A stretch of DNA of 64,000 nucleotides from Coniferiporia sulphurascens (lineage: Eukaryota > Basidiomycota > Agaricomycetes > Hymenochaetales > Hymenochaetaceae), in the NCBI GenBank assembly GCA_002794785.1, contig NBBA01000017.1:744001-808000 (forward strand). The letters run 5' to 3'. Below are positions 18,734-62,831 of the stretch, piece by piece. Within the stretch, counting starts at the first letter, position 1. Each line of letters begins with the position of its first letter. The translations under genes were made by a program, and so were the position numbers. The notes beneath the pieces were generated by a model. That model was given only the letters and a program-made list of their open reading frames with translations. It did not search any database and was not told where the DNA came from.

Positions 18734-18791
18734 GGGGGAGTTTTAGCTGCCCGCACTAGTCGATGATAGTGGTTACTGGTCAAGAAGGATG
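18734..18791 (-). promoter_or_regulatory. LINE 58-nt 5' leader, candidate internal promoter/initiator
   Basis: The same 58-nt sequence precedes the ORF1 ATG in L6, L11 (33831-33888) and L17 (62236-62293), starting CATCCTTCTTGACC and ending AAACTCCCCC before ATG. The sharp, identical 5' end in three separate copies implies a fixed transcription start. The first 29 nt resemble the start of the non-coding body of the chimeric elements (25 of 29 identical, ungapped). A promoter role is inferred. Confidence 0.6.
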
Positions 18792-25835: not shown

Positions 25836-26783
25836 CATCCTTCTTGTCCTCTTACCACCACCATCTCACTTTTGCTCTGGGGTCGTCTCTGGTCAGTCAC
25901 AGCAACCCATGCTCTGCTCTGGTATACTACTGGGGTGTCATGAGAGAAGGCATCTGACTGCGCACCTTTTGTAAAGGAGCACTGCTCACTGGTCGCCGAG
26001 GCGCTGTAGCGGTGTCGCTGGATGGCACAAGAGGGGCTTAACTGCTCGCCAGAGGGTATGCAACCTGTCGAAAACGTTGCATTGGGGGGGGGTGACTCGG
26101 TGAGGATGAGCCTTCTTCACGTCCACGCTGACCTTCTCGAGGCAGTGTGCTCACTGGTCCGCCTCTCGGCGGCACAAGGGAGTGTACGCCTGCCAGTCGG
26201 GGGGGGACACAACATTAACGTCCCTAAGGGAGGGCGGAAACCCCCTGCCCATCTAGCGGTCGGCTTCGGCCGGGAAACCTTGGGTTCAGGGAAACTCGGA
26301 TCTAGGGCCATGTAGTCCTCGGCATAGACTAATCAAAGAACTGCCATCCCCAAATTCCGAGAGGGTGTCTGATGATGGCATTGGATGCTATAAGGACATA
26401 GGGGTCTCATAACACGTGGCGTTGTCGGTGATAACCAGCCGATGCGAGAGCAACAGGCCACCATGGGCCCTCGGGGGAGATGGCAGGCCCCTACTCGCGA
26501 ACCCTTCACTGGGAACAACGGGAGGTGGTCGGTGCTCCACTGGGGGTGGTTAGTCATGCGGACTCCCTGGCAGCCTCGAAAGAGATAGGCCGGGGTCCAA
26601 GCCTCTGGCAACATGGAGACTTGTGTACGTTGTGGATCCAGAAGCGGGACTCCGTCCTGAGTATTCCCCGGGGTTTACCCTGGGCTCCGAAGCATGTGCA
26701 TGGGAACGGGAAACTCACGTTGGGGCAACCTGACCTCTGAGCAGGCCATAGCAGTGGGGGGTAGTTCCCTTCATTCGGCTTGA

Positions 26784-26798
26784 GAGGACTAAATCCTC
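26784..26798 (+). other. Conserved hairpin in non-coding body (C1)
   Basis: GAGGA-CTAAA-TCCTC forms a perfect 5-bp stem. The same 15 nt occurs in every body copy: 29105-29119 (minus), 35832-35846, 37069-37083 and 62779-62793 (minus). It is followed by a second short inverted pattern, GGGGGTAATTCCC. Persistence in copies that are otherwise diverged suggests a structured RNA; function is unknown. Confidence 0.65.
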
Positions 26799-27413
26799 CG
26801 TGGGTTTGGGTGGGGGTAATTCCCACTCCGAGCTTAAGTTGATTCCCATGATCCAGCAGCGCTCTACAGTGGAAAGCGGGGCAAGGGAGGGAATGTGTAG
26901 GGTAGGGGGGGCATTCCAATGGGTGAAGTAGTGCTGATGGCGCCGTGACCTTCACCTGGGGTGTTCTCCTGGCGCGGCACGCCTTACCCAACCCAGCCCG
27001 CCGTAGAGGACAGCGTGTCGTGTGTAAGGCCTATTAGCTCCAGGCAGCGATGTCACGAGGAAGGTGTATGCATAGTGATGGGTCCCGCAAGGGCGCCCTT
27101 AATCTTGGGCCCTTTTGGAGCTCTCAGGTACACTCCCACCATTTCCCTCTGACTTGTGACTGCCATTTGGATTCCCCTCAGTTTCTTCTATGGCAATTGC
27201 AGCCACTCCTTTTCGCTTCTAAGGGACTCTCTCTTCCTGACCTCGTTTTAACGGTTCCGGTTTTCTGTAGTCGTGATATGTATACCTCCCTCTTCCCCTC
27301 TATTTATCCCTAATAGGGTGTGTAAGTACACTAGGCCTCCTTGGAGGCACGCACCCCACCCAGTTTCACTCGATGAGCGATGACAGGTGCCTCAGTAGTT
27401 AGGTAGTTTACAG

Positions 27414-27432
27414 GCGGCCCCTCCGGGGCCGC
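27414..27432 (+). other. LINE-B 3' UTR hairpin
   Basis: GCGGCCCC-TCC-GGGGCCGC is an 8-bp perfect stem about 25 nt before the conserved CAGCAGGAATAAT tail junction. It replaces the C-run/G-run hairpin of type-A 3' UTRs at the same position. Copies lie in C4 (near 38231-38249) and C5 (near 55183-55201, minus, slightly mutated). Confidence 0.75.
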
Positions 27433-27475
27433 AGGTGTATTACATAGCACAGCAGGAATAATAAATAAATAAATT

Positions 27476-27679
27476 GGGGATACCGGCGATCCCTGAGGGG
27501 TGCCTAGGTCGGGTTTCTGGGCGGTTGGGAGGGTGGTGCCATCAAAAGCAATGGTGACCTGCCAGTCCATCATGAAGGACAAACACCAGTCTGCCATGTT
27601 GGGTGGGCACTGGAGGTCCAGCAGTTGTCGGTGGAGGAGCTGTGGGTGTACCGAGTTGAAGAACCCCTGTATGTCGACT
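27476..27679 (-). pseudogene. L11 ORF2 middle fragment (RT motifs A-B)
   Basis: Minus-strand RT: DIQGFFNSVHPQLLHRQLLDLQCPPNMADW...TAQKPDLGTPQGSPVSPI, cut on the left by the C1 tail. It is the direct continuation of 30036-31807 once C2 and one copy of its TSD are removed. The motif A Asp and motif B are intact; motif C is lost. Confidence 0.9.
27665..27679. repeat. TSD of C2 (left copy)
   Basis: CCCTGTATGTCGACT, repeated exactly at 30036-30050. Confidence 0.93.
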
Positions 27680-30035
27680 TTTATTTATTTATTTATTTAT
27701 TATTCCTGCAGTATTACATAATGACAAGCTGCCCCCCCAAAGGGGGGCCCTAACTACATAACAACGGAGGCGCCCATCATTGCACATCACACAAAACTGG
27801 GCAGGGGCTCTGCTCCCCGAAGGGTGCCGAAGTGTGGAGAGCCCCTATTTAGTAGGAAACACATCAAGAGGGAGGAATACATATCACTACGAACAAACCA
27901 CACGGTTGAGGGCAGGTTAAGGTAAGAAGCTTAGAAGTGAAAAGGGAGGGTGAGAGCGCCGGCCGAGACGTATCATGAGGAATTCGAAAGGCAGGCATCA
28001 GTCGGATGGGAAAGGGGGGAGCATACCTGATAGCTCCAAAAGGACTGGGTCCGAGTCCCGGGTTCGGGGTCCAAGCATACGGCGCATATATTCCCTAAGG
28101 AGGTCCAAGTCCATATCCTCGTCAGTGGGATGGCCGTCAAGGTCCATCACGGCAAAAGCCAGCTGGATGGCTCCAGCAGTGCAGTCGGAAAGGCGGTTAA
28201 GATGCCCTGTCAGCTTAAGCCAATGGCGCAAAACCGGGAGGCAGTTTTCATCAGCCCACTCTGAGTGGTGGACTGGGAGAGGGTCCCGAGGTGGCCACAT
28301 GCACCGTATCCACAGGTGGAAGGTGCTGCAGCTGCCAAGGATGTGGGCGGTCGACTGCATGGGCCAGGGGGGGTGGTTGTGCCATCTGCAATGCGAGATC
28401 AAGCCATGCCTGCGGCAGTAGGATGAGTCAAAGCTCAGACAGTATCCCCCGTAGGGACCAGCATAGCAGAGGACCTGCGCAACTGCAGCTAGCTCATTGC
28501 GTGGGTGGTTGACCAAGTGCATGAGGAGCTTTCAGGGTCGGTGTGAGGGTATGCCGTGTACTGCCAAGTATTTATCGGCGGTCGAGGCTAGTGGGCGGGC
28601 TAGTGATAGCGTCCATCTTTCCATAAGGGTGCGGACGGTGGCTTCTTTTAGTGCAGAGGTGGAGGGTTTAAGGTCGGATGGAGAGAGCTCAGTCACCAGC
28701 TTAGCTTCCATGTCAGCCCATTCATTTCTGGGGATGTCCGAGTGTCCAGGGCACCATACAAAATGGACGGTGAGTTGGGGGTATGAGTCTAGCCAGAATT
28801 AAGAGCGCCCTTGCGGGACTCAAACAATGTGTGTACCTTCCTCGGGATATGCAGCCGACCAAAACTGCTCCCGCTGTCCCCTACGACATATGGGCGCTAT
28901 ATTGGAGCACTAGGGTAAGGCGTGCCATGCCAGGAGGCCACCCCGGGTGAAGGTCGTGGCGCTGTAGGCACTACTCCACCCATATGGAATGACCCCCCTA
29001 CCCTACACATTCCCTCCCTGACCATAGAGGTCCTGCAGAGTACCACTGCGCTTCTGGGAATCAACTTAAGCCCATAGTGGGAATTACCCCCACACAAACC
29101 GACGGAGGATTTAGTCCTCTGGAGCCACTGAGGGGAACTCTCCCACAGCACTATGGCCTGAGACACTACACTTCAGCATGCCAGGATGCTGACACATGCT
29201 CCATGCAGGCCCTTTCCTGTGCCCTGGCACGCACTTCAGAAACAGCCATTACAGCCGGAATACTCAGGAACCAAGGTCATGGGACAAGCGCCCAGTCAAC
29301 CCCCGGCCCCCGCTTCTGGATCCACGATTGTACCAGGATCTCCGTCTTGCAGACCTGACCCCAGTGGCAAAGCCGTCCCAGGGAGTAAGGGCTACTAACC
29401 ACCTCAAGAGGGTCCAACCCACCCAAGAGGCCCATGGTGCCCTGTCGCTTTTCAGCATTGGGTGGTTCTTACCGCCACACCATGTGTTATGAGCCCCCTA
29501 TCTCCTTTTAGCATGAGGTGCTGTCATCAGAGACCCTTTTGGGAATTTGGGGGGGCAGTTTTTGATTTGTCATGCCAGGGACAACACGGGCCCCGAGGTG
29601 CCCAGAAGGGTATTGCTCAGCACCCGAAGGCATGATCCGAGTTGCCCCGAACCAAGATCTCCCAACCGAAGTCGCCCACTGTGAGGCAGGGGGTTTCCCC
29701 CCCCCCTGTGAGGACATTAACGTCATGTCCCCCCCCGCCAAGCCCACATACAATGCAGGCCCAACGAGCATGCCACCCCGAGAGGACAGCGCAGACGCCA
29801 GAAGGATTGCAAGCTCACCAAGAATCCGACCAGTGGCAATGTTTTTGATGGGTTGCCAAGACTGCCGGCGAGCTCTGCGCCCGTTCCCCACCACATTACG
29901 GCGACCGACGACCAACCCCGGCACACCAGGGTGAGTCGGAACCTTCTCTTGTACGATGCCCAGTCCCAGAGAGTCCAGACAAGGTCAGGTAGCTGCGACT
30001 TCCCCCCAGCCAACCCCAGTCGCAAAACCGAGATG
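27680..30035 (-). mobile_element. Chimeric retroelement C2: complete body fused to A2-LINE 3' end, with TSD
   Basis: A complete minus-strand chimera inserted in L11. TSD CCCTGTATGTCGACT is at 27665-27679 and 30036-30050 (15 bp, exact). Body: 30035-28797 (5' end CATC, 3' end GCAAGGGCGCTCTTAATTCTGGC). LINE part: 28796-27680, subfamily A2, starting at RNase H LDSYPQLTVHFVWC and including the type-A 3' UTR and AAAT tail. The body is diverged from C1/C4 but shares blocks, including the GAGGA-CTAAA-TCCTC hairpin (29105-29119). This copy shows that body plus LINE tail moves as one unit. Confidence 0.9.
27998..28796 (-). pseudogene. C2 LINE part: ORF2 C-terminus
   Basis: The RNase H end (GHSDIPRNEWAD), an Arg-to-TGA near 28532, then open from 28522 to the stop at 27998: LVNHPRNELAAVAQVLC, GPYGGYCLSFDSSY, HCRWHNH-x9-HILGSC and DEDMDLDLLREYM. 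It belongs to subfamily A2. Confidence 0.88.
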
Positions 30036-31807
30036 CCCTGTATGTCGACTGCTAGGACCAAACATACACGGCCCTCTGCATGGGCACACTCTGCAATCTG
30101 TAAAAGGTGTTGGGCAGTGTCATAGACTGAGTGTCCCTGACACCCCCTGTACTGGTTGGGTGGCAGCCAGTCCCTTGTGTTAGCGAGGAACTGGAGCTGG
30201 TTAGCTATTATCTTTTCGAGGAGTTTCCCTAGGGTCTCCTCAAGGGTGATGGGCCAATAAGATCTTGGTGAGAAGGGGTCCTTCTTGTTAGGCTTCCGTA
30301 GCATTACCACTTTTGCCGCCCACCAGCACTTAGGGTGGTGCCCCATGCGTAAGCAGTCATTGAAAAGGGTGAGGATCTCGGCGGGGTAAGCATCTACCAC
30401 CCATTTTAGTGGGCGGTAGCCGATCCCCGAGAGGCCTGGAGCCAACAAGTTGGAGGTGTCGGACAGTGCCCCCATGAGCTCCGTGAGGAGTATGGGCGGG
30501 GCAGCTGGTTGGAGGGGAGGCGGTGGGGTGGGAGCCGCTTTTGGGGGTGGGGGGGGTGCGAAGAAAGTCGTGCAGAAGAGCTCACCTTTCTCGATGTCCG
30601 ACTGGGTGAAGGTGCCATCGCGTTTCTTGAGTGAGGGGATTGGGGTGGGTCGGTTGCCAAGGCCTCGTTTGGCCCAGCTCCATATGTTGGAGGCATCCAC
30701 CTGGTCGGCTTGTTCAGCATAAAAGTGCCGTTTGGCCGCTTGTACACCACGTTTGAAGGCGTGGCGGGCTGCTGATTGCTGAAGGGGGGTGGTGGCCGTT
30801 GAAATCGTCTGGAGGAGCGATTTGCAGGTCGGGGTCCACCAGGGGACCTCGGTTTTTGATGGCTTGGCGAGTCTGGTGAAAGGGGCGAGGGTGGTGATCA
30901 TAGAGTCGACCACAGCCTGCGCTTTGACATCGAGGGTGGTGGGGTTGTCTGCTGATATGAGGAAGGCAGATTCGAGTAGTGGGAAGGCGATGTCGGACCA
31001 TTCCTCTCTGTCGGCTGGGAGAAGCTGGCGTGTTTTCATGACTGGAGGTGGGGGCCGGGATGGCAGGGACCAGCGTAGCATTGTGTGGTCGGACAGTGGG
31101 GAGGTGGTTGATGACCCCGAGTCTATAATGGCATCAGGGTTGATTGCGGGTGGAGCCCAGACCATGTCAATGGGGCACCATCGATGATTGTCCATGGGCC
31201 ACGAGTCAGAGTCCGGGAGGTGGGCTGGCGCAAGGCCATGCTCCCGGAAGAAGTCATTGAGGGGTTGTGCCCTCAAGTCCTCCTGCCGAGCTGCAAGGAG
31301 TTCGGACCATGAGCGGTGGCGATGGTTGAAGTCGCCGGCCATGAGCAGAGTAGAGGCCAAGACTGGCAGGAGCATAAAAAGGAACGACTCACTGGGGTAT
31401 TGTGGGGTGGTGGTGGTACGGTCCGGCGCATGCATACCATAGTAGTTGCAGAGGCGGATGGTTATTTGGGAGCGGATTTCGATAGTGAGGACGTCGGTGC
31501 CGGACGAGGCAGTGCCGAGGACTGACCATGTGGTTGAGGGGATGGCCCTGGATACATACATAATGACCCTTGGCCTGGTGGCTGGGGGAAGAATGGCTGT
31601 GTACCCTGGGAGGGAGGGTATGTTGAGGACCGGTGTGCCAGTTGGGTTGGTGAGGGATGGCTGGAGACCGATTTGGTACCATGGTGGTTCCTGTAGCAAA
31701 ATAATGGTGGGTGGGGATGGGTCAGTGGTGAGGATCGGGATGAGGGAATGGACCGTGGCTAAGGAGCGGGCGGCATTCCACTGAAGAATGGAGATGTCTC
31801 TATTCAT
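30036..31807 (-). pseudogene. L11 ORF2 5' part: intact EN and RT fingers
   Basis: Open for about 590 codons from ATG 31807 (MNRDISILQWNAARS) to the C2 junction, the best preserved EN in the window. It has LLQEPPWYQIG, TYVSRAI-type region, MAGDFNHRH, WCPIDMVWAPP and SDHTMLRW, then the linker (TKPSKTEVPWW type), RT entry GYRPLKWVVDAYP, PITLEETLGKLLEKIIANQL and VLAVDIQG (motif A). The chance open frame continues into the C2 body and should not be read as part of the protein. Confidence 0.92.
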
Positions 31808-33830
31808 TGATCCTCCATGTGGTCGTCATTGGGCCCGTCAATTGCAGCCTCGATTTGGCGAAAACGCCGTTTCTTGGGGCACTGAGGGAGGGTAGCGGGG
31901 TGGTCGCCTTTGCAGTTAGTGCAGTAGCAAGGATGAGGGCAGTGGTCGCCCTTGATGGCTTCAGAGGCGCATGATGCACATGACTTATGGTGGTTGCAGG
32001 AGAGGTGTCCTCCTCCGCAGTTGGCGCAGCAGGGCTGGGCATGGCACCCTCTCATTCCATGGCCGAGGCCCTGGCAGCGCTCACATTGCGTGAGGCCAGG
32101 GCGGTAAGGCGGGACAGAGAGGGAGAGAGCGGAACCGAAGAGCCGTACTCGTGGGCACTTAAGTAGCTGAGCCCGGATAGATCCGTCAGGGTCGGAAAAG
32201 GAGAATGCCATGGGGCACTTCTGGAGGGTCGGGAGGTGCTCCTCGGTGGAGGCAAAGTGAGGGTCAACTACAAAGTTGAGGGGGTGGAGGGACGGGTTGT
32301 TCCAGATTTTGGCCATGAGGGCCTTTGGGGAGATGGTGTGGCCATTTTGGCCGAAGAGGTAGTCCACGCAGGGCACCATGGAGATGCAGAGGGCGGACCG
32401 GGGGCGGACATGGACAGGGTTGAGCATGTACTGCTCGGGGATCTTGTCGATCTCGACCGAGAGGCAATGCTCGCACATATGGGCCGCAAAGGCTGCAGAG
32501 TGCTGATTGATGATTGTGTCTGTGGCCGGAGAGGCAGAGGCAGGGCGCTTAGCGAAGGAGGTCACGAGGTTCCCCTTTACATTGAAAGAGGAGGCCAAGA
32601 CCGTGACCTGGTCAGCGGTGGGAAGGGAAGAGAAGAACTCACAGGTGGTGGTGGTAAGGCACATGGCTGGGAGCTGAATCTCGGATTTGAGCGAGATGGC
32701 TGGGATGAGGACCAGGGTCGGGTCTTTGGCATACATCAGGGGCAGGGGCAGGACTTGGCATTGCTTTTTCTTCTTCTTGTGGGTCACCATCGTGAAGACG
32801 GCACCCGCGGCAGGTGCAATGGGGTTGGGGTTGGTGGCCATGGGTGGTGCCGGGGCAGCTGCCACCTGGGCGTAGGAAGTTGGTGCCATGGTGATAGCAG
32901 CCTGGTTGGTGGTGGTGGGGGCCTGGGCCTTCTGGGCCTGTGGGGTGCAGGGGGCAGGCCGGTTGACAAGGGTCGAGACTTGCCGGGAGATGGAGGCGAC
33001 CTCTGTGGAGAGCTGCTTAACAATGTTAGTCAGCACGGCCACATTGGGCGAGATGTTAGTGGTGCCAGGAGTCCTGATCGGGGCAGAGGGTTGGGGGGCG
33101 GTGGCCAGGGTCCTTTGTTGGGGGCGAGCTGGGGCAAAGGGCACTGGCAGGGAGGCTTCTGCCCCCCCCTTGCGATGTTGTAGGCCATCTCAATGTTGCA
33201 TGAGATGATGTATTGGGGGTCCTTCTCGTCTCTCAAAACACCGGCAATAGTCTGTTGGACGTTCCAGAGGAGGTCGCCTACAAACTTGGCCACGGCACGG
33301 TCAATCTCTTCTGGGTTGTAGCGGTGGGTCTTCCTGTCGAAGTCCTCCAGTGCTCGGGAGATGGCATACATGAAGCCCAATGTGTGCGGCTCGAACTGGG
33401 CTCGAGGGCGAGGTCAGGGGGTGTGTGGGGACAGGTTTTTGGATGACCTCTTATTGGTGAGTGGTGGCAAAGGTGTGTGCGGGTTCTCAAGGATATCTTC
33501 CATCTTGCCTTGTTCGTTGGAGCCGGTGGGGGGGTTGGAGCTTTCGGAAGGGGGGCGGCTGACGTGTTCGAATGTGCGGGTGAACTCCATGTTCAAAACT
33601 CCGAAGACGGGGGATGGGGCAAGACAGAGCGCATCTGGGGACGATGCCAGGAGGCCTGGGTCGATGTGGGTGGGGGTCGTACTGTGCAGAGCGGCGGCAA
33701 CGTTGCCAGCAGCCACCCAGTTGGCGGTGGCTCTGGCGGCCCTGTCGGCATTGGCGCTGGCCGATGAGGGGGGTGGGAGGGGTGGTCGAGTCGATCGGAG
33801 AGCATTCCTGTATCCACTGGGGTTCGACAT
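31804..33830 (-). pseudogene. L11 ORF1 gag-like protein
   Basis: ATG 33830 (MSNPSGYRNALRS). Stop near 33414 (after PHTP) and a frameshift near 33165, then open from 33144 to TGA 31804-31806. Parts: Ala-rich N-terminus, ALEDFDRKT block, LTNIVKQLSTEVASISRQVSTLV heptad-like segment (possible coiled coil), Pro/Ala linker, HKKKKKQ, central MVPCVDYLFGQNGHTISPK block, knuckles CERCQGLGHGMRGC, CANC-x3-H-x4-H and CTNCKGDH-x6-C. ATGA overlap with ORF2. Confidence 0.9.
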
Positions 33831-33888
33831 GGGGGAGTTTTAGCTGCCCGCACTAGTCAATGGTGGTGGTTACTGGTCAAGAAGGATT

Positions 33889-34153
33889 GACTAGGTCCCG
33901 CGGTGTTAGCACCAAGGTGGGTTCCTTGGTGTACATTTTGGGGGGGGGTGGTGGTTGCCGGACTCTCTTCGCCTTCTTTTCTGGGGCTGTCTGGGCTGCG
34001 GGGGGCTGGGGGAGGTTAGCTGCTATCGCCGCTAACTGAGCATACGTCATTGGGGCTCCAGCCAGTACAACTTTTGCTGCAGCCTCGAGCTGAGCCGGGG
34101 TTATGGTGGTGGCGACTGTTGCCACAGTTGGCACAACCACCCCCCATGGCCCG
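33889..34153 (-). pseudogene. Divergent LINE ORF1 fragment
   Basis: Minus-strand coding for ITPAQLEAAAKVVLAG...MTYAQLAAIAANLPQPP...KKAKRVRQPPPPPKMYTKEPTLVLTPRD. It matches ORF1 by its YAQ(V/L)A, basic KK and PPPPP-MY-K-PTLVLTP landmarks but differs strongly elsewhere, so it is a fifth ORF1 type, possibly that of subfamily B. It is bounded by the L11 5' end and the C3 body. The last 20 nt or so before 34153 resemble, in plus orientation, the ORF2 WHNHPPWP motif. Confidence 0.75.
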
Positions 34154-34629
34154 CATCCTTCTTGTCCTCTTACCACCACCATCTCTGGTTTTCACTGGGG
34201 GTCATCTGGGGGTTCGTCACAGCAACCTGTACTCTGGTCTGGTATACTACTGGGTCGATACGAGAGAAGGCTACTGACTGCACACCAGTCTTCCGGAGTG
34301 CGTGCTCACTGGTCGTCCAGTCGCTGTAATGGCGGTTTCGAAGATGTGAGAGGGGCTCCAGGGCTCGCCAGAGGGTATGCAATCCATCGTTAATGTTGCA
34401 TTGGGGGGATAACTCGGTGAGGATGATTCCTCTTCACGTCTGCCATGCCCTCTCGGGGTGTGGTGCCTCGACTGGTCTGCTGGTCATGCCCTTGGGCCCG
34501 GTCAGCGGGGCAAGGTGCAAAGTGCACCAGTCGGGGGGAACATGACGATAATGTTTCCATGGGAGTCGGGAAACCCTCTGCCCACTAGCAGTTGGTGAAA
34601 ACCGGGAAACCTCGGGTTCGGCAAAAGTC

Positions 34630-34641
34630 GGGTCTAACCTT
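34630..34641. repeat. TSD of L12 (left copy)
   Basis: GGGTCTAACCTT, repeated exactly at 35356-35367. Confidence 0.92.
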
Positions 34642-35355
34642 TTTTATTTTTATTATTTTTATTATTATTCCTGCAGTATTACATAATTACAAGCTGCCCC
34701 CCCAAAGGGGGGGCCCTAACTACATAACAACGGAGGCGCCCATCATCGCGCATCGCACAAAACTGGGCGGGGGCTCTGCTCCCATGAGGGTGCTGAAGTG
34801 TGTAGAGCCCCTATTCGTTTTGGAAACAAGGGAAGGAGAAGGAGGAGTACATATCGCTACAAACTAACCAAGCGGGCGAGGGCAGGTAAAGTAAGAAGCT
34901 TAGAATTGAGAAAGGGATGGCGAGAGCACCGGCCGAGACGTATCCGTAGGAGTCCGAAAGGCAGGCGTTAAGTGTAAGGAAATGGGGGGAGCATACCTGA
35001 GAGCTCCAAAAGGGCCGGGTCCGAGTCCTGGGTTCGGTGTCCGAGCATACGACACATGTAGTCCCTTAGGAGGTTCACGTCCATATCCTCATTGGTTGGG
35101 TGTCTGTCGAGGTCCATTGTGGCATACGCTAGCTTTATGGCCCCTGCGGTGCGGTCTGAAAGGCGGTTTAGGTGCCCCGTTAGCCTTAGCCATTGGCACA
35201 AAACCGGGAGGTGGTTCTCATCTGCCCACTCGGAGTGGTGGACTGGGAGGGGGTCTCGTGGTGGCCATACTCATCGTATCCATGGTTGGAAAGTGCTGCA
35301 GCTGCCGAGGATGTGGGTGGTCGACTGGGCAGGCCATGGGGGGTGGTTGTGAGTT
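34642..35355 (-). mobile_element. LINE fragment L12 (A2), short 5'-truncated insertion in C3 body
   Basis: 714 bp. TSD GGGTCTAACCTT at 34630-34641 and 35356-35367 (12 bp, exact). It contains the AT-rich tail, type-A 3' UTR and the last 129 codons or so of ORF2 (complement 34968-35355; includes STHILGSC and DEDMDVNLL, ends PPFPYT-stop) with an Arg-to-TGA near 35275. Truncation lies inside the HCRWHNH motif. Confidence 0.93.
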
Positions 35356-36107
35356 GGGTCTAACCTTCTGGGGTTGATGCGCTTGCATTGAGGCCATGAT
35401 GACCGGCATGTCATATCAAAAACTGCCCCCCCAAATTCCCGAAAGGGTCTCTGATGACGGCACTAGTTGCTAAAAGGAGATAGGGGTCTCATAACACATG
35501 GTGTGGCAGTAATAACCATCTGACGCAGAAATGCGACAGGACACCATGGGCCTCTCGGGTGGGATGGGCCCCCTTGAGGTGGTTAGTAAGAGGCACTCCC
35601 TGGCGGCTGTAAAAAGCGTCGGGGTCCACCCCTCTGCAACACGGAGATTCTGGTACGCTGCGGATCCAGAAGCGGGAAAACTCTTAAATGCGGGCCCCAA
35701 GTATTCCCCATGGAGCATGTTGGGGTAACACCTGATGCTGATGTGGGTTCTGAAGTGCGTGCCAGGGCACAGGAAACTCAGTGCGCTGAGCGGGCCATAG
35801 CAGCAGGGGGTAGTTCCCTCTGTTGGCTTGAGAGGACTAAATCCTCCATGGGTTCTAATGGGGGTAATTCCCATTCGGGCTTAAGTTGATTCCTTGACAC
35901 ACAGTGGCGCTTCACATCACCAAGCGGGTACAGGGGGGTGTGAGTCCAGGCGGCTGGGGGTGGTGGGGTAGTGCCTACAGTGCTGCGACCCTCACACTAC
36001 ACCTCTGGTGCGTCGGGTAGCTCTAATCTCACCTTTAGGCCTGTGTGGTGTGAAGGACAGCAGGAGGGGTTTGTCAGGCCCCATATCCTGAGGAAGGTAC
36101 ACGTGTA

Positions 36108-36121
36108 TGTTGGGCCCCGCA
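36108..36121. repeat. TSD of C4 (left copy)
   Basis: TGTTGGGCCCCGCA; the right copy at 38304-38317 has two transitions. Confidence 0.9.
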
Positions 36122-38303
36122 CATCCTTCTTGTCCTCTTACCACCACCATCTCACCTTCGCTCTGGGGTCATCTCTGGTCAGTCGCAGCAACCCATGCTC
36201 TGCTCTGGTATACTACTGGGGTGTCATGAGAGAAGGCATCCGACTGCGCACCTTTTACAAAGGAGCACTGCTCACTGGTCGCCGAGGCACTGTAGCGGTG
36301 TCGCTGGATGGCGCGAAAGGGGCTTAACCGCTTGCCAGAGGGTACACAACCCATCAAAAACGTTGCATTGGGGGGGGTGACTCGGTGAGGATGAGCCTTC
36401 TTCACATCTGCGCTGACCTTCTCGAGGCAGTGTGCTCGCTGGTCCGCCTTTCGGCGGCGCAAGGGAGTGTACGCCTGCCAGTCGGGGGGGGACACAACGT
36501 TAACGTCCCTAAGGGAGGGCGGAAACCCCCTGCCCATCTAGCGGTCGGCTTCGGCCAGGAAACCTCGGGTTCAGGGAAACTCGGATCTAGGGCCGTGTAG
36601 TCCTCGGCATAGACTAATCAAAGAACTGCCATCCCCAAATTCCAAGAGGGTGTCTGATGATGGCATTGGATGCTATAAGGACATAGGGGTCTCATAACAC
36701 GTGGCGTTGTCGGTGATAACCAGCCGATGCGAGAGCAACAGGCCACCATGGGCCCTCGGGGGAGATGGCAGGCCCCTACTCGTGAACCCTTCACTGGGAA
36801 CGATGGGAGGTGGTCAGTGCTCCACTGGGGGTGGTTAGTCAAGCAGACTCCCTGGCAGCCTTGAAAGAGATAGGCTGGGGTCCAAGCCTCTGGCAACACA
36901 GAGACTTGTGTACACTGCGGATCCAGAAGCGGGACTCCATCCTGAGTATTCCCTGGGGTTTACCCTGGGCTCTGAAGCATGTGCATGGGAACGGGAAACT
37001 CACGTTGGGGCAACCTGACCTCTGAGCAGGCCATAGCAGTGGGGGGTAGTTCCCTCCATTCGGCTTGAGAGGACTAAATCCTCCATGGGTTCAGGTGGGG
37101 GTAATTCCCATTTCGGGCTTAAGTTGATTCCCATGATCCAGCAGCGCTCTACAGTGGAAAGCGGGGCAAGGGAGGGAATGTGTAGGGTAGGGGGGGCATT
37201 CCAATGGGTGGAGTAGTGCCGATGGCGCCGCGACCTCCACTCGGGGTGTTCTCCTGGCACGGCACGCCTTACCCAACCCAGCGTGCTGTAGAGGACAGCG
37301 TGTTGCATGTAAGGCCTTTGTCCTGGGGGCAGCGATGTCACGAGGAAGGTGTATGCGTAGTGATGGGTCCCACAAGGGCGCCCTTAATCGTGGACAAATA
37401 CCTGGCGGTGATAGGGCCCCCTACACGAAGACCAAGAAAGATAATCACTATCTCAGTCGACCACCCTCGCACGGAACTCACTGCAGTGGCGCAGGTCCTC
37501 TGCCGTGCCAGTCCCTATGGGGGCTACTGGCTGAGCTTCGACTCAGCCTACCAGCACAGACACAGCCTGATCTCCCACTGCAGGTGGCACAACCACCCTC
37601 CCTGGCCAGCACAGTCAACCTCCCATATCCTCGGCAGATGCGAAACCTTCCAGCCCTGGATACGACGTGTCTGGCCCAAGAGCGACCCCCTCCCTATCCA
37701 CCATACTGAATGGGCAGATGAAAACCACCTCCTGGTCTTAAGACGCTGGCTGTGCCTTACAGGCCACCTCAATCGGATATCTAACTGCACTGCTGGGGCG
37801 ATCCGCCTCGCCTTTGCGGCCATGGAACTAGACAAACTCCCCACCAATAACAACCTTGACTTGGACACCCTCTGGGGCTATGTGCACAGGTTGCTTGGAT
37901 CCAGGACTCAGGACATGGACCTGGCCCTTTTGGAGCTCTCAGGTATGCTCCCCCCATTTCCCTCTGACTTGTGACTGCCATTTGGATTCCCCTCGGTTTC
38001 TTCTATGGCAATTGCAGCCACTCCTTTTCACTTCTAAGGGACTCTCTATTCCTGACCTGGTTTTAACGGTTCCGGTTTTCGGTAGTCACGATATGTATAC
38101 CTCCCTCTCCTCTTCTATTTTATCCCTAATAGGGTGTGTAAGCACACTAGGCCTCCTTGGAGGCACATGCCCTACCCAGTTTCACTCGATGAGCGATGAC
38201 AGGCGCCTCAGTAGTTAGGTAGTTTACAGGCGGCCCCTCCGGGGCTGCAGATGTATTACATAGCACAGTAGGAATAATAAATTTAAAAAAAAAAAAAAAA
38301 AAA
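36122..38303 (+). mobile_element. Chimeric retroelement C4: body + 0.9-kb LINE-B 3' part, inserted in C3
   Basis: Body 36122-37389 (5' CATCCTTCTTGTCC, 3' AAGGGCGCCCTTAATC), then LINE-B from codon VDKYLAVIGPP to the 3' UTR and a long A tract ending at 38303. TSD TGTTGGGCCCCGCA at 36108-36121 versus TGTTGGGCTCCACA at 38304-38317: 14 bp with two transitions, so C-to-T and G-to-A changes arose after insertion. It sits inside the homologous body of C3. Confidence 0.92.
37390..37974 (+). pseudogene. C4 LINE-B ORF2 C-terminus (open, but N-terminally absent)
   Basis: Open from the fusion point to TGA 37972-37974, about 194 LINE codons without stops. VDKYLAVIGPPTRRPRKIITISVDHPRTELTAVAQVLC, GPYGGYWLSFDSAY, HCRWHNH-x9-HILGRC, WPKSDPLPIHHTEWADEN, NNNLDLDTLWGYV. 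It defines subfamily B. The frame also reads back into the body (from about 37204) by chance. Confidence 0.88.
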
Positions 38304-38333
38304 TGTTGGGCTCCACAAGGGCGCCCTTTAGTC

Positions 38334-41300
38334 AGGCCTCACGAAACCGTCGAAAACGGAGGTCCCCTGGTGGACGACAACATGCAAAACCCTGCTGACA
38401 GCCATTTTGACGGCTACCACCCCCCTCCAACACACCTTCAAACACGGAGTGCGCACAGCCAAACGGCAGTTCTATGCCGATCAGGCGGCTGAAGCGGACA
38501 CCTCCAACATCTGGACCTGGGCCAAGCGTGGCCTCGGCACCCGACCCACGCCCATCCCGTCCCTCAAACAGCGGGATGGAACCTTCACCCAGTCGGACAA
38601 TGAGAAAGGTGAGTTATTCCAAGAAACTTTCTTCATGCCCCCCCCCCCTGCAAGTGGACCCAAATCCGCCACCACCACTCCAACCAGCTGCCCCGCCCAT
38701 ACTCCTCACTAAGCTTATGGGGGCACTGGCCGACACCTCCAACTTATCGGCTCTGGGCCTCTTGGGAATAGGCTACCGCCCCTTAAAATGGGTGGTCGAT
38801 GCCTACCCCGATGAGATACTAACGCTTTTCAATGACTGCCTCCACATGGGGCACCACCCCAAGCGCTGGCGGGCAGCAAAAGTGGTTATGCTCCAGAAGC
38901 CAAATAAGAAGGACCCATTCTCGCCACGTTCATACAGGCCCATCACCCTCAAGGAGACCTTAGGGAAACTGCTCGAAAAAATAATAGCTAACCGACTCCA
39001 GTTCCTCACTAACAAACGGGACTGGCTGCCACCCAACCAGTATGGGGGGCGTCAAGGACACTCAGTCTACAATGCCGCCCAACACCTCCTACAGATAGCG
39101 GAGAACGCCCATGCAAAGGGCCTTGTGTGCTCAGTCTTAGCAGTCGACATTCAGGGCTTCTTTGATTCGGTACACCCCTGCCTCCTCCACCGGCAATTGC
39201 TGGAGCTTCAGTGCCCACCTGACATGGTGGATTGGTGTCTCTCCTTCATGACGGACAGGCAGGTCGCAGTCACATTCGATGGCACCACCCTCCCAACTGC
39301 CCCCAAACCCAACTTCGGCACCCCTCAAGGATCGCCTGTCTCCCCCATCCTATCAACAATTTTTGCGGGTGTGGTCCTCCGGCGCTTCCACCAAGCCGGC
39401 ACCACCACACTCGCATACATTGATGACCACTTACTAATATGCGTAGGCCCCACAGTAGCATCAAACTGCCGCCGACTAGCCGATGCATATCACCAACTTG
39501 ACGGTCTCTTCGGCAACATCAGACTCAACATTGAAGCCGCCAAAACAGAGACACTCCACTTTCACCCACCCCGGTGCAGAATTGGCTATCACGGCTGGGA
39601 CACCGCAGGGATTCAAATCGACCCCAACACCCTCATCCGACCCTCCCGCCCACTGAGGTGGCTTGGGATCTGGTGGGACCCAGGCCTGACCTTCAAGCCC
39701 CATGTAGAGAGAATGCGCTCTAAGGGGCTCTCCACCCTCGCCGCCCTCTGCATCCTGGGTAATACCAAACGCGGAGTATCGGCCCTCCTCCTCAGGCAAC
39801 TATACACCAGCTGCGTCCGCTCCGTCTTAGCATGGGGCGCCCCAGTCTGGTACCATGGCCGCTGCCAAAAAACCCTAATAAACCGCCTACAGTCTGTGCA
39901 AAACACGGCCTGCTGGTGGATCCTAGGCGTCTACAAGGGCGCCTCCCCATTCTCCACTAATTTTCTATGCTCAGTCCCTCCCCTTTCTTTTTACTTTGAA
40001 TACTTAAAAACATCCCACTCCCTGCGTGTATGGTGCACCCCCCACTCTATTGGCCGCAAATGCTTCTGAAATGTAACTAATAGACCTTTTTCCCTTTCTC
40101 TGTGGGTCCAAGTCCCTCGGGTACAACCGGTCCCTGCATACACACACCCCCCCTGGACGGATCCTCTGGCCTTTACAGGCGGATGGGTCACCTTCACCCT
40201 CCCATCCCTACCGGTCACAGGCGACACACAAAGAGTTTGTGCAGGCTGCGCTAGACCTCAGCACCACCCACCACCTCCAGGTCTTCATGGATGGCTCTCG
40301 CATTGGGACAGCCTCGGGATCCGCCATCTGCACTATGCTCAGCCGAACCAAATTGCGGTCTCACTGACTCGCCTCCCCCACCTGCGCCACAGCCACGGAC
40401 GCAGAAATCTTCTCCCTCGCCACCGCCCCTGGCTGGGTAGCGCACCGCCTCCGCACCCATCTGCCTGTCACATCGGACATGTTCTTTCTGTCCGATTTGC
40501 TGACAGCACTCAACCTTTTCCGCAGCTGGGCCACCGTCCCTGGGGCCCACCTCCTCCACCTTTGGAAGGCAGGGGTCGAGACGCTTCTGGATTCGCATCC
40601 AGGCCTCACAATCCATTTCATATGGTGCCCGGGTCACTCGGACGTCCCCGGAAATGAATGGGCCGATATCGAAGTGAAACTCGTCATGGAGCTCCCCCCC
40701 TCACAGCTTGTGCCCTCCATATCCACCCTTAAGGAAGTGGCCACCAAGACTCTGGTCGAACAGTGGATGCTATCCCTGGTCCGCCCTCTAGCCTCCACTG
40801 CCAACAAATACTTGGCTGTGCATGGCATCCCCTCACGCCACCCACAGAAGCTGCTCACCCACTCTGTAGACCACCCTCACCACCACCTCTCTGCAGTGGT
40901 GCAAGTCCTCTGCCATGCCGGTCCCTACGGGGGCTACTGGCTGAGCTTCGACTCAGCCTACCAGCACAGGCATGGCCTGATCTCCCACTGCAGGTGGCAT
41001 AACCACCCACCATGGCCAGCACAGACAACTGCCCACATTCTAGGTGGGTGCACCATGTTCTGCCCCTGGATCCGGCGCATCTGGCCAGCCAAGATCCCCC
41101 TCCCAGCCCACCACTCAGAATGGGCCGAGGAAAACCTTATCCCAGTTCTGCGCCATTGGCTTAGGCTGACAGGGCACCTGAACCACCTCTCAGACAGAAC
41201 CACAGGCGCCATCCGCCTGGCTTTCACCATGATGGAGTTAGACGGCCACCCCACTGACGAGGACATGGACCTGGACCTCCTTAGGGACTACATGCGTCAT

Positions 41301-41384
41301 ATGCTCGGACCCTGTACTCAGGACTCGGACCCGGCTCTCTTGGAGCTTTCAGGTATGCTCCCACCCTTTCTCTCTGACCTGTGA
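38334..41384 (+). pseudogene. C3 LINE-A3 ORF2: RT, RNase H, C-terminus
   Basis: From the linker through RT: frameshift near 38655, then open 38474-40069 (531 codons) with PLKWVVDAYPDEI, AVDIQGFFDSVHP, GTPQGSPVSP, an intact YIDDHLL, LNIEAAKTE and WLGIWWDPGLTF. TGA at 40067-40069, a frameshift near 40220 and an Arg-to-TGA near 40365 damage the RNase H start. From 40479 it is open to TGA 41382-41384, with FFLSDLLTAL, GHSDVPGNEWAD and HCRWHNH-x9-HILGGC. The RT catalytic set is intact. Confidence 0.9.
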
Positions 41385-41701
41385 CTGCCTTTTGGACTCC
41401 TAATCGTATGTCCCAGCCGGTGCTCTCACCCTCCCATTCTCCATTCTAAGCTACCTCCTTTGCCTGCCTTCATCCATTTGGTATTGTCGTAGCGATATGT
41501 ATTCCTCCCTCTCCTGTGTGTTTTGTACTAATAGGGGCCCTTCACACCTTGGCACCCTTTGGGGAGCAGGGCCCCTGCCCAGTTTCGTGCATTGCACGAT
41601 GACGGGTGCCTCCGTTGTTATGTAATTAGGGCCCCCCCTTCGGGGGGGCAGCTTGTAATTAGGTAATACTGCAGGAATAATTTAAAAAAAAAAAAAAAAA
41701 A

Positions 41702-51286: not shown

Positions 51287-54200
51287 CCCGCCTCTCGAAA
51301 CCATCGAAAACGGAGGTCCCTTGGTGGACGCCAACATGCAAAACCTTACTGACCAACATCTCGACGGCTACCTCCCCCCTCCAATGAGTGTCAGCATGAC
51401 GCACTTTCAAACGCGGCATGCACACGGCCAAGCGGCAGTTTTACGCTGATCAGGCGGCCGAAGCGGACGCCTCCAACATCTGGACCTGGGCCAAAAGGGG
51501 CCTCGGCACCCGCCCCACACCCATTCCGTCCCTCAGATGGTGGGATGGCACCTTCACCCAGTCAGACGATGAGAAAGGTGAGTTATTTCGGGAAACTTTC
51601 TTCAGTCCTCCCCCCCCACGCAAGCGGATCCAAACCTGCCACCACCACCCCAACCAGCTGCCCTGCCAATACTCCTTAGCGAGCTTATGGGGGCACTGGC
51701 CGATACCTCCAACTTGTCGGCTCCGGGCCTCTCGGGAATAGGTTATCGCCCCCTGAAATGGGTGGTGGATGCCTACCCTGATGAGATCCTAACGCTTTTC
51801 AATGACTGCCTCTGCTTGGGGCACCACCCCAAGCGTTGGCGAGCGGCAAAAGTGGTTATGCTCCAGAAGCCAAACAAGAAGGACCCTTTCTCGCCGCGTT
51901 CATACCGGCCCATCACCCTTGAGGAGACCCTGGGGAAACTCCTCGAAAAGATAATAGCTAACAGGCTCCAGTTCCTCGCCAACAAGTGGGACTGGTTGCC
52001 ACCTAACCAGTATGGGGGGCGTCAAGGACATTCAGTCTATGACACTGCCCAACACCTCCTACAGATAGTGGAGAATGCCCATGCGAAGGGTCTCATGTGC
52101 TCGGTACTAGCAGTCGACATACAGGGCTTTTTCAACTCGGTCCACCCCCACCTCCTTCTTAGAATCTATGCACGTTGTGGTAGATGATGAGGTGCAGTGG
52201 TGAAGTCAAGGCGAAGGTGGGTTATCAGCGTAAACCAATGTATTTCATGGTAGAGACCAGCTCTCCTTATATACATCTACCGTGAGCTACGTATACTATA
52301 ACTATCATAGCTCCTATTCATATGGCGTTATCATTGCGTTATCGTTTACTTAGTAAGATGGTTGATCATACGACCATCTTTATATTTAGTACGTTCGTTA
52401 TATTTATTTAATACTCCTCCACCAGCAACTGTTGGAGCTCCAGTGCCCGCCAGACATGGCGGACTGGTGTCTCTCCTTCATGACAAATCGGCAGGTCGCA
52501 GTCGCCTTCGACAGCACCACCCTCCCAACCGCTCCAAAACCCGACTTCGGCACCCCTCAAGGATCGCCTGTCTCCCCCATCCTATCAACAATTTTTGTGG
52601 GAGTGGTCCTCCGGCGCTTTCGACAAGCCGGCACCACTGCTCTCGCATACATTGATGATCACTTACTAATATGTGTCAGCCCCTCAGTATCATCTAACTG
52701 CTGCCGACTTGCCGATGCATATCACCAACTCGACGGCCTCTTTGGCGACATCGGCCTCAACATCGAAGCGGCCAAAACAGAGGCACTCCACTTTCACCCA
52801 CCTCAGCGCCGAGTTGGCTATCATGGCTGGGACACCGCCAGGATCCAAATCGACCCCAACACCCTTATCCGACCCTCCCACCCACTTAGGTGGCTCGGGA
52901 TTTGGTGGGACCCAGGCCTGACCTTTAAGCCCCATGTAGAGAGAATGCGCTCTAAGGGGCTCTCCACTCTCACTGCTCTCCACATCCTAGGTAACACTGA
53001 ACACGGCGTATCAGCCCTCCTCCTCTGGCGACTATACACCAGCTGCATCCGCTCCGTCTTAGCATGGGGCACCCCAGTATGGTACCATGGCCGCCACCAG
53101 AAAACCCTAATAAACCGCCTCCAATCCATGCAAAACACGGCCTGCTGGTGGATACTAGGTGTCTATAAGGGCGCCTCCCCCTTCTCTACAAACTTTTTAT
53201 GCTCCGTCCCTCCCCTTTCTTTTTACTTTGAATATCTAAAAATGTCCCACTCCCTTCGCCTATGGCGCACCCCCCACTCTATTGGCTGCAAATGTTTCCA
53301 CACTGTAACTAATAGACCTTTTTCCCTTTCTCTGCAGGCCCGAGTCCCCTGGGTACAATTGGTCCCTGCATACACACATCCCCCATGGACGGATCCCCTG
53401 GCCTTTACAGACGGACAGGTCACTTTCACCCTCCCCTCCCTCCCGGTCACAGGCAACACACGCAAACAGTTCGTGCAGGCTGCGCTAGACCTCAGCACCA
53501 TCCCCCACCTCCAGGTCTTTACGGATGGCTCCTGCATCAGAACAGCCTCAGGATCCGCTATCTGCGCCATGCTCGGCCGAACCAGACTAAGGTCCTGCCG
53601 ACTTGCCTCCCCCACCTGTGCTACAGCCATGGATGTGGAAATTTTTTCTCTCGCCACTGCCCCGGGCTGGGCTGCGCACCGCCTATGCACTCACCTGCCT
53701 GTCGCATCAGACCTGTTCTTCCTGTCTGATTCACTGATGGCACTAAACCTCTTCCGCAGTTGGGCCGCCATTCCGGGTGCCCACCTCCTCCACCTTTGGA
53801 AGGCAGGGGTCGAGACTCTTCTGGACTCGCATCCAGGCCTCACCATCCATTTCGTGTGGTGTCTGGGTCACTCGGACATCCCTGGAAACAAATGGGCGGA
53901 TGATGAAGCGAAACTAGCCACGGAGCTCCCCCCCTCACAACTCGCGCCCTCCATATCTGCCCTCAAGGAAGTGGCCACCAAGACTCTGGTTGAACAGTGG
54001 ACGCTGTCCCTGGCCTGCCCCCTAGCCTCCACTGCCGATAAATATCTGGCAGTACATGGCATCCCATCACGACATCCACAGAAGCTGCTCACCCACTCCA
54101 CGGACCATCCCCACCATCACCTATCTGCAGTAGCGCAGGTCCTCTGTCGCGCCAGTCCCTACGGGGGCTACTGGCTGAGCTTCGACTCAGCCTACCAATG

Positions 54201-55120: not shown

Positions 55121-55881
55121 TTTTTTTTTTTTTTTTTTTTTAAATTTATTATTCCTACTGAGCTACACAATACACCTGCAGCCCCAGAGGGGCCGCCTGT
55201 AAACTACCTAACTACTGAGGTGCCCATCATTGCTCATCAGGCGAAACTGGGCAGGGTGCGTGCCTTCCTAAGGAGGCCTAGTGGACTTACATGCCCTATT
55301 AGGGGTAAATAGAGGGGAGGAGAGGGAGGCATACATATTGCGACTACAAAGAGCCAGACCAGGCCAAGAGCAAGATCCGGAAGAAAGAGTCCCTTAGAAG
55401 AGGAATGGAGCGGCTGCAAGTGCCATAGAAGAAACCGATGTGGAAACCGAAGGGCAGTCAAGAGTCAGAGGGAAATGGTGGGAGCGTACCTGATAGCTCC
55501 AAAAGGGCTGGGTCCGTGTCCTGAGTCCTGGATCTGAGAAACCTGCGCACGTATCCCCAGAGGGTATCCAAGTCGAGGTCGTTGTCTGTCGGGAGTCCGT
55601 CCAAGTCCATAGCCACAAAGGCGAGGCGGATCGCCCCAGATGTGCGGTTGGACATCTGGTTGAGGTGGCCTGTGAGACGCAGCCAGCGTCTTAAGACCAG
55701 GAGGTGGTTTTCATCCACCCATTCGGAGTGGTGTACAGGGAGGGGGTCGCTCTTGGGCCACACATGTCATATCCAGGGCTGGAATGTTTCGCATCCACCT
55801 AGGACATGGGAGGTTGACTGTGCTGGCCAGGGTGAGTGGTTGTGCCATCTGCAGTGAGAGATCAGGCCGTGTCTGCATCAG
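55121..55881 (-). mobile_element. Chimeric retroelement C5, 3' part (LINE-B C-terminus, 3' UTR, tail)
   Basis: A-rich tail (T-run at 55121-55141 on plus), LINE-B 3' UTR with the GCGGCCCC hairpin variant, and ORF2 C-terminus (complement 55458-55881): HCRWHNHSPWPAQSTSHVLGGC, one Arg-to-TGA at 55771, WPKSDPLPVHHSEW, NDLDLDTLWGYV, ending PPFPSDS-stop. It continues at 62294 on the other side of L17. Confidence 0.92.
55869..55880. repeat. TSD of L17 (left copy), decayed
   Basis: GTGTCTGCATCA versus GTGTCTGTGTTG at 62294-62305; all four differences are transitions. Confidence 0.82.
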
Positions 55882-62235: not shown

Positions 62236-62293
62236 GGGGGAGTTTTAGCTGCCCACACTAGTCAATGGTGGTGGTTACTGGTCAAGAAGGATG

Positions 62294-62793
62294 GTGTCTG
62301 TGTTGGTAGGCTGAGTCAAAGCTCAGCCAGTAGCCCCCATAGGGACCGGCACGACAGAGGACCTGCGCCACCGCAGTAAGCTCCGAGCAGGGGTGGTCAA
62401 CTGAGATAGTGACTAGCTTTCTCGGTTGTCTGGTGGGGGGCCCCGTCACTGCTAAGTACTTGTCAGCCAGAATTAAGAGTGCCCTTGCGGGACTCAAGCA
62501 ACACGTGTACCTTCCTTGGGATATGCAGCCGACCAAAACTGCTCCTGCTGTCCTCTATGACATATGGGCACTATATTGGAACACTAGGGTAAGGTGTGCC
62601 GCACTAGGAGGCCACCCTGGGTGAAGGTTGCGGCGCCATAGGCACTACTCCACCCATATGGAATGACCCCCCTACCCTACACATTCCCTCCCCAACCATA
62701 GAGGTCCTGTAGAGTACCACTGCGCTTCTGGGAATCAACTTAAGCCCATAGTGGGAATTACCCCCACACGAACCGACAGAGGATTTAGTCCTC
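62294..62793 (-). mobile_element. Chimeric retroelement C5, 5' part (body end + LINE-B start)
   Basis: Minus-strand: body 62793-62467, ending GCAAGGGCACTCTTAATTCTGGC as in C2, then LINE-B from ADKYLAVTGPPTRQPRKL (62466) to 62294, where L17 interrupts. The body is interrupted on the right by L18, exactly after the conserved hairpin GAGGA-CTAAA-TCCTC (62779-62793), and must continue beyond the window. Confidence 0.9.

Positions 62794-62831
<38 letters not shown>

Follow-up and report, generated by a model that had tools for sequence, protein, structure and literature searches.

The window analysed here, a stretch of 64,000 nucleotides from Coniferiporia sulphurascens, carries five elements (C1–C5) in which a body is joined to the 3' part of a LINE. 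All five had been described in an initial annotation, and its junctions were right to within a few bases. C1, on the forward strand, has a full-length type I body that extends from a 5' hallmark to ...CTTAATCTTGG (positions 25836–27108), followed by the ORF2 end, 3' UTR and tail of a subfamily B LINE (27109–27472). C2 lies on the reverse strand; its type III body (28793–30035) is without the first 26 nt, its LINE part (27680–28792) is of subfamily A2 and starts at the RNase H end, and the element is flanked on both sides by AGTCGACATACAGGG, a target-site duplication (TSD). C3, on the forward strand, had been given as a single span, 34154–41701, which is not contiguous and holds both a LINE and C4. 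Its type IV body begins with a piece at 34154–34639, is broken by a reverse-strand LINE (34640–35351), resumes at 35352–36121 until interrupted by C4, and reaches its 3' end (...CCCTTTAGTCAGG, 38304–38336) beyond the C4 insertion; the LINE part (38337–41701) is of subfamily A3 and starts in the EN-RT linker. C4 as a whole (36122–38303, forward strand) is inserted into the C3 body with the TSD ATGTTGGGCCCCGCA/ATGTTGGGCTCCACA (ATGTTGGGCYCCRCA), and comprises a full-length type I body (36122–37393) and a subfamily B LINE part starting in the linker after RNase H (37394–38303). C5, on the reverse strand, retains the 3' part of a type III body (62467–62794), the upstream part being cut off by another LINE, and a subfamily B LINE part in two pieces, one at 62294–62466 and the other, beyond a nested LINE, at 55123–55876 (85% to B). 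C1 and C3 have no recognisable TSD.

The LINE subfamilies assigned earlier to the five chimeras were all correct, as were the LINE start positions, except that C4 and C5 start one codon apart and not a few. A shared body is indeed common to the five, but it comes in the several types given above; the two type I bodies, those of C1 and C4, are 94% identical. The nearly constant body 3' end claimed in the annotation was borne out too, although it extends further, to ...TGG (AGG in C3).

The first ~29 nt of the body form a hallmark that is also found at LINE 5' ends and in solo elements elsewhere. At up to 2 mismatches the hallmark occurs at 678 sites genome-wide and at none in the reversed control, and the window has 6 sites compared with 0 in 100 shuffles. 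LINE 5' ends with the same motif lie on the reverse strand at 18763–18791, 33860–33888 (AATCCTTCTTGACCAGTAACCACCACCAT) and 62265–62293. The latter two, both decayed copies, have their first ATG at nt 59, counted from the 5' end of the LINE, and lack a body; at other loci, LINE-type 5' ends resemble them in both respects. LINEs that extend as far as the hallmark thus do not have the body as their normal 5' region. That the body and LINEs have this 5' end in common also argues against the body being a chance cellular RNA.

The genome searched was an assembly of 39.35 Mb in 31 contigs. Genome-wide, the C1 body as query had 48 matches, of which 13, with C1 and C4 themselves among them, cover nearly its full length at 88–100% identity; this excludes chance as an explanation for the body repeats. 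The body 3' end, searched with two patterns at up to 3 mismatches, gave about 155 matches genome-wide: 71 with the type II pattern, for which the reversed control gave 1, and 84 with the type III pattern, for which it gave 0 and which also catches some type I and related ends. Among the 59 sequences taken, the body 3' end could not be recognised in three (L015 and L059 are interrupted, L073 is divergent), and the bulk analysis covers 56 chimeras; L016–L024 and L026–L030 repeat loci already sampled and were counted once. With L025, C5, L077 and L078 (the last 99.7% identical to L070), 60 body ends were read out of the roughly 155. L025, which stands outside the bulk counts, is joined to subfamily A1 at LINE site 4687, with CCG or CCA before the site and the TSD AGAACCAGGAGGC. 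The loci were chosen as the best, mostly full-length body matches, and body ends were located by a pattern allowing up to 4 errors; the sample is without shorter matches and may lack copies whose junction lies within the body, so that the fixed body end described below is partly a matter of choice.

Each of the 60 body ends that we read adjoins a LINE 3' part directly and in sense orientation. None of them proved to belong to a solo body or to its source; two copies at C10 and C28 that had looked isolated turned out to be LINE-fused as well. The genome-wide body search with a table of downstream LINE breakpoints, proposed in the initial annotation, gave 39 distinct LINE sites in the 56 chimeras (collapsed by hand), in partners of subfamilies A1, A2, A3 and B. 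The body side, by comparison, ends in TGG in 54/56 chimeras (L066 ends in TAG), in RNA letters ...UGG, and ...CUGG in types II and III. A TSD was found in 19 of 50 chimeras, against 1 of 2450 mismatched flank pairs; in the other 31 (nesting, old copies, short flanks) none was found.

The LINE sites are not distributed evenly over sequence contexts. CG, TG or CA stands before the site in 44/56 chimeras and at 30/39 distinct sites, compared with 328 of 1736 neighbouring positions (19%; Fisher p = 5e-21), and some other dinucleotide in the remaining 12/56. Enrichment is strongest for the CG step (19/56 chimeras, 86/1736 neighbouring positions), and of the two purines G, which matches the last G of the body, is more frequent at the site. 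In 4/56 chimeras, however, at least 7 of 8 LINE relatives have A and not G at −1, and pairing with the last G of the body therefore cannot account for all sites. Ordinary 5'-truncated LINEs, taken as a control, showed CG, TG or CA at 2/8 sites, a set that is too small and in which several sites are doubtful or spurious. Splicing from a donor in the body to acceptors in the LINE is ruled out, as AG precedes only 5/56 sites.

Did fusion happen many times, or were a few fused elements multiplied? In a tree of 52 bodies (4/56 were left out), the LINE sites are different within 12 of 16 sister pairs, and with subfamilies A1, A2, A3 and B all involved this means that fusion recurred. Type II has 29 copies at 24 sites and type III 12 copies at 11 sites (by hand), and the same site is found in non-sisters: in L035 and L042, and also in L039 (type II), L071 (type III) and L043 (outside the tree). 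The tree, the variable sites, the four subfamilies and the TSDs on fused units agree with the earlier suggestion of repeated independent fusion by more than one LINE lineage. The sister pairs with a common site are L055/L056, L031/L032, L003/L006 and the weakly supported L009/L012. The first three, with L058 at the same site as L055/L056, probably multiplied as units. Type I occurs at few sites and is mostly joined to subfamily B.

The body exists as four related types of ~1.27–1.29 kb. Its 5' start was located within reach of the junction in 50/55 chimeras tested (C3, left out of this count, also has the start); the five exceptions are C2, with its missing 26 nt, and four interrupted copies. 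The longest ATG ORF per body is 67–209 aa, and no sense-strand ORF of at least 80 aa has a stop column common to more than 10/52 bodies. With its longest ORFs so short and scattered, the body can be ruled out as a coding sequence, and we take it to be a non-coding RNA. No known RNA family was matched in Rfam (one of the searches used three loci, one per main type), and no tRNA-derived head was found. Folding gave a mean window z of −3.2 on the sense strand and −1.5 on the antisense strand. In the body alignment (the type II majority sequence was built without L060) 98.9% of cells are paired, and covariation is 0.221 against 0.153, with 0 of 500 shuffles as high, for a structure derived from the same alignment and with only about three independently varying clades. 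Pairs with two-sided change number 5, not above shuffles (4.8). A conserved RNA structure of the body is thus supported but not proven.

We consider it likely that the body is an RNA passenger that spreads on the front of 5'-truncated LINE copies, a reading that holds for either route of joining and overlaps with the ligation explanation weighed below. The body would be a structured non-coding retro-RNA family, transcribed from the hallmark at its 5' end, and would exist as a free RNA that spans CATCCTTC to the fixed 3' end ...UGG. Target-primed copying by the LINE machinery would start at the 3' tail of the LINE, and the LINE template would end or be left at many places, mostly after a pyrimidine-purine step (CG, TG or CA). 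Copying would then continue onto the body RNA from its 3' end to its 5' end, and the fused cDNA would be inserted with a TSD. A few chimeras would probably be copied again as units. Transcription of the body, the free 3' end of its RNA and the joining step are the parts that we infer.

Both template jumping and RNA ligation prior to copying fit these data, and sequence alone cannot choose between them; we favour jumping, which we hold to be somewhat probable, over prior ligation, for which we leave a considerable though lesser share. RNase cleavage prefers pyrimidine-purine steps. If a piece of cleaved LINE RNA were ligated onto the body RNA at its 3' end, and the resulting chimera then copied, breakpoints at such steps and the TGG on the body side would both be expected. 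Human LINE-1 chimeras arise from preligation according to PMC8857657, and for U6 snRNA/LINE-1 chimeras ligation and template switching are both discussed and given as open in PMC13174262. On the other hand, the commoner purine at the site is the G that matches the body's last G, as predicted for a jump guided by one base, and CG is the most enriched step. Ligation first, a variant of the passenger reading, is rather unlikely in our view. In the experiments excerpted from PMC8857657, R2 RT in vitro jumps best with an overhang of +1, at most +2, nt complementary to the acceptor 3' end, a preference that fits the frequent G common to the LINE site and the body end.

A master element, an intact LINE of which the body would be the normal 5' region and the chimeras internal deletions or splice products, is very improbable. 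The common 5' hallmark would be expected from such an element, and at L073 a divergent body adjoins ORF1-like sequence. The LINE part of L073, however, appears to begin inside ORF1, the hallmark-bearing LINEs have no body, the LINE parts belong to four subfamilies, and the sites are not splice acceptors. Among the LINE types seen, none was found intact with the body in front of ORF1, the observation that the initial annotation had named as overturning its reading; L073 is the sole near and doubtful case. Least probable of all is descent of every copy, as an ordinary non-autonomous element, from a few one-time fusions. The 4/16 sister pairs with a common site and the few sites of type I agree with such descent for a minority, but as the whole story it is refuted by the sister pairs that differ and by the many sites of types II and III.

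The initial annotation had compared the chimeras with MINE of Magnaporthe grisea, in which WEIRD, a 1.1-kb non-coding RNA, is joined to MGL (PMC2104539). By the features listed in the accessible part of that paper the elements here are of MINE type: a full-length non-coding 5' part is followed, in sense orientation, by the 3' part of a 5'-truncated LINE, which varies in length, with breakpoint hot spots and direct repeats, and in both systems no solo copy was found (here among the 60 ends read). The resemblance is incomplete, as here there are four body types, several LINE subfamilies, about 155 body-end matches and a conserved-structure signal, and the body has its 5' end in common with LINEs, a feature that the same part of the paper does not mention for WEIRD (PMC2104539). 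The site rule also differs, a pyrimidine-purine step before the join here and GCC*A/U without microhomology in MINE as described there. That WEIRD may be a housekeeping RNA was left as a possibility, and its source gene was not found (PMC2104539). U6 snRNA/LINE-1 chimeras of mammals, as outlined in PMC13174262, likewise have a small RNA in sense 5' of a LINE 3' part and TSDs, but U6 is a host gene, whereas the partner here has a LINE-type 5' end and diverged families. Trypanosomatid Pr77 (L1Tc/ingi) is, in the summary of PMC4748587, a short conserved 5' sequence on coding LINEs and non-coding partners, and in C. sulphurascens, too, LINEs and non-coding elements have a 5' end in common, with a putative promoter role. 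Pr77 is a tested promoter (PMC4748587) and is also reported to be an HDV-like ribozyme (PMC4035085); the hallmark-bearing body here is blank in Rfam, and the lineages are distant from each other.

SINEs exploit LINEs by imitating their 3' end, and have a known small-RNA head with a Pol III promoter and a LINE-like tail of their own. The body resembles them in being non-coding and apparently dependent on LINE machinery. Unlike them, it has no tail of its own at any of the 60 ends read, no tRNA or Rfam match, and a LINE 3' part of varying length on each copy; judged from these features, it is not a SINE. The four diverged types, the fold-supporting alignment and the LINE 5' end make the passenger look like a mobile lineage and not an accident of abundance. 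More tentatively, and with a little less than even confidence, we suggest that the body is a distinct selfish RNA with a LINE-derived 5' end and a fold under selection, which would spread only as an acceptor without an RT-start signal of its own, copied solely because LINE copying passes onto ...UGG. If true, an acceptor-only body would add a third mode of exploiting LINEs to those of SINEs and processed pseudogenes. In open-access papers we found no report of such chimeras in basidiomycetes or of a passenger with a LINE 5' end. The 60 junctions and about 155 body ends constitute a data set for how LINE chimeras form, and the rule seen at the sites, a pyrimidine-purine step with G as the usual purine facing a fixed end of the acceptor, lends itself to direct testing with purified LINE RT. 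Among the matches listed for the LINE RT-RNase H protein, 30/44 are from Coniferiporia weirii at 55–68% identity, 2/44 are other close matches, and 12/44 are remote at 19–25% identity.

All five chimeras, C1 to C5, that the initial annotation described in the window are present, each a non-coding body fused to the 3' part of a LINE. In the 39.35-Mb, 31-contig assembly, in which the window spans bases 744001-808000 of contig C17, the proposed search for the body and tabulation of LINE breakpoints gave at least 48 matches to the C1 body (at least 44 to a type II body and 45 to the C2 body) and 39 distinct LINE start sites, collapsed by hand, in 56 copies. Copies were read at the best-matching loci, where most matches are full length, and not at the partial matches of the three body searches; in this bulk set of 59 sequences, the body 3' end, located by a pattern tolerating up to 4 errors, was readable in 56. 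Types II and III end in ...AATTCTGG in nearly all copies (exceptions are L048, AACTCTGG; L060, AATGTTGG; and L066, AATTCTAG), type I in ...AATCNTGG or AATTGTGG, and C3 in ...TTAGTCAGG. LINE sequence abuts the body end directly, without a gap, in the 56 copies, and LINE relatives were identified for every fused part; the 42 starts placeable on the A1 reference occupy 32 coordinates between 2255 and 5460. With L025, C5, L077 and L078, which have the same junction form, the near-constant body end and variable LINE start first seen in the window hold in 60 of 60 ends read genome-wide. L060 and six other type III-pattern matches ending in AATGTTGG represent an additional variant of the body, distinguished by how its 3' end is spelled and branching at the type II base in the body tree.

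The type II form of the body end occurs 71 times in the genome (up to 3 mismatches; 1 in the reversed control), and the type III pattern 84 times (0 in the control), some of the 84 being type I or related ends. These 155 matches are spread over 23 contigs, confined on each to a single stretch no longer than 462 kb. Heaps of LINE nested within LINE appear to form a single stretch per contig (contigs C1-C30) and may mark centromeres. The window itself is mostly such nested sequence and contains endonuclease, RT and RNase H domains; for one RT-RNase H protein query, 30 of the 44 matches listed are from Coniferiporia weirii, at 55-68% identity. Chimera C3, taken initially as contiguous, is interrupted by a LINE and by C4. 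The C4 and C5 joins do fall at differing LINE positions, though one codon apart rather than a few, and the C5 LINE is indeed subfamily B, its sequence resuming past a nested LINE.

The single shared body originally proposed aligns along its length but divides into four types, whose majority sequences (built from 13, 25, 12 and 1 copies) are identical in columns 1-29; the C1 and C4 bodies are 94% identical. Across the body types, the longest ORF starting at an ATG spans 67-209 aa, and no sense ORF of at least 80 aa has a stop column common to more than 10 of 52 bodies (antisense stop-column sharing reaches 14 of 52). Rfam and tRNA searches of the body gave no match. With RNAalifold on 22 bodies, many windows scored a strongly negative z, with a mean of −3.2 on the sense and −1.5 on the antisense strand (20 windows each) and 9 versus 5 windows below −3, values that are rough since the column shuffle does not preserve dinucleotides. 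Two-sided change was found in 74 of 227 predicted pairs (52 bodies; 13 overlapping windows, mostly picked for low z). In a separate 30-sequence alignment, in which 35 of RNAalifold's 42 pairs were tested, 98.9% of cells are paired versus 39-57% on sliding; covariation (0.221 versus 0.153 shuffled) and cells with two-sided change (46 versus 13.7) were matched by 0 of 500 shuffles, and pairs with two-sided change number 5, the same as in shuffles.

Body-LINE fusions integrated as single units. Target site duplications (TSDs; at least 12 bp, at most 2 mismatches, preceded by an A/T-rich tail) flank 19 of 50 chimeras versus 1 of 2450 mismatched combinations of an upstream flank with other copies' downstream flanks; C2 and L025, outside the 50, also have one. 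Fusion happened repeatedly, as initially suggested: 12 of 16 sister pairs in the 52-body tree differ in LINE site, and non-sister bodies reuse sites, L035 and L042 the identical nucleotide, and L039 and L071, of different body types, a site also used by L043, outside the tree. The four same-site pairs (L055/L056, with L058; L031/L032; L003/L006; and the weakly supported L009/L012) probably multiplied as ready-made chimeras. More than one LINE lineage took part, A1, A2, A3 and B all being partners. Type I bodies pair with B in 13 of 14 copies and types II and III with A1, A2 or A3 in 40 of 41, the remaining one having no subfamily assignment; C5, read separately, joins a type III body to B.

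Could the body instead be the normal 5' region of an intact LINE, the master element that the initial annotation set against its own reading? This is disfavoured, as in none of the LINE types seen did a body precede ORF1. In its favor, L073 (contig C2:1270500-1272400, minus strand, outside that contig's LINE stretch) has a divergent body fused to sequence resembling ORF1 of a distant LINE. Because its alignment begins well within ORF1, we read L073, with some doubt, as another chimera. The body RNA may derive from a small number of source genes or else from chimeric copies whose 3' end is processed; the body tree, in which inner branches are short and tips long, suggests few sources.

On the LINE side, the two bases ahead of the site, read from the closest unfused relative, are CG in 19, CA in 13, TG in 12, AG in 5, CT in 4 and others in 3 of 56. 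CG, TG or CA thus precedes 44 of 56 sites, against 328 of 1736 positions close by (p 5e-21). Counting each distinct site once gives 30 of 39 (p 7e-15); at ordinary 5'-truncated LINEs the count is 2 of 8, too few for a control. Many CA or TG cases alternate with CG among relatives. The three dinucleotides interchange at matching sites among LINE copies throughout, which suggests decay of methylated CpG. The frequent G before the site is also the base with which the body ends, leaving most junctions compatible with a one-base overlap; for L008, L052, L053 and L062 the base is A in at least 7 of 8 relatives, and overlap is therefore not required.

An acceptor end that is fixed, a donor site that varies, the sense orientation and the TSDs are all consistent with template jumping, in which target-primed reverse transcription of a LINE would jump end to end from its template onto the 3' end of a body RNA. 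Passages of PMC8857657 describe R2 RT as jumping best when the overhang is +1, or +2 at most, and pairs with the end of the acceptor, and attribute human LINE-1 chimeras to RNA preligated before copying. The sequence data fit both routes, and passages of PMC13174262 consider either possible for LINE chimeras; the template switching initially proposed thus agrees with the junction features, which do not separate it from RNA ligation.

The body starts with CATCCTTCTTGTCCTCTTACCACCACCATC and the LINE with CATCCTTCTTGACCAGTAACCACCACCATYGACTAG (first ATG at nt 59), and their joint 5' pattern occurs 678 times in the genome (up to 2 mismatches; 0 in the reversed control). This hallmark, inferred to act as a promoter, is arranged much as in the trypanosomatid Pr77 family, as described in part of PMC4748587. 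A third form, CCTTCTTGACCTCTTACC, starts another LINE-like 5' end and also solo elements of about 0.9-1.0 kb beyond the LINE stretches (L072, L074 and L075; longest ATG ORFs 115, 87 and 66 aa, none long). These lie on chromosome arms, are tailed by (TCA)n or poly(A) and, judged by eye, are flanked by TSDs; L074 contains a head-to-head pair of hallmark elements separated by 73 bp (contig C2:1113666, minus; C2:1113739, plus).

The suggested likeness to MINE, the Magnaporthe chimeras, is borne out in the structural features listed for MINE in portions of PMC2104539, and the two work alike. The same portions give the Magnaporthe site preference as GCC*A/U, with no overlap; unlike MINE as described there, the C. 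sulphurascens chimeras have several probably structured body types bearing the LINE's own 5' end. The body chimeras are an ordinary LINE-chimera event turned into a lineage.

An AT-rich repeat starting TATTAAATAAATATAACGAACG is common to window positions 52157-52414, L015 (from 2217) and L076 (from 162). In L076 and L015 it runs into a shared stretch of about 1.5 kb that by eye resembles an LTR retrotransposon.
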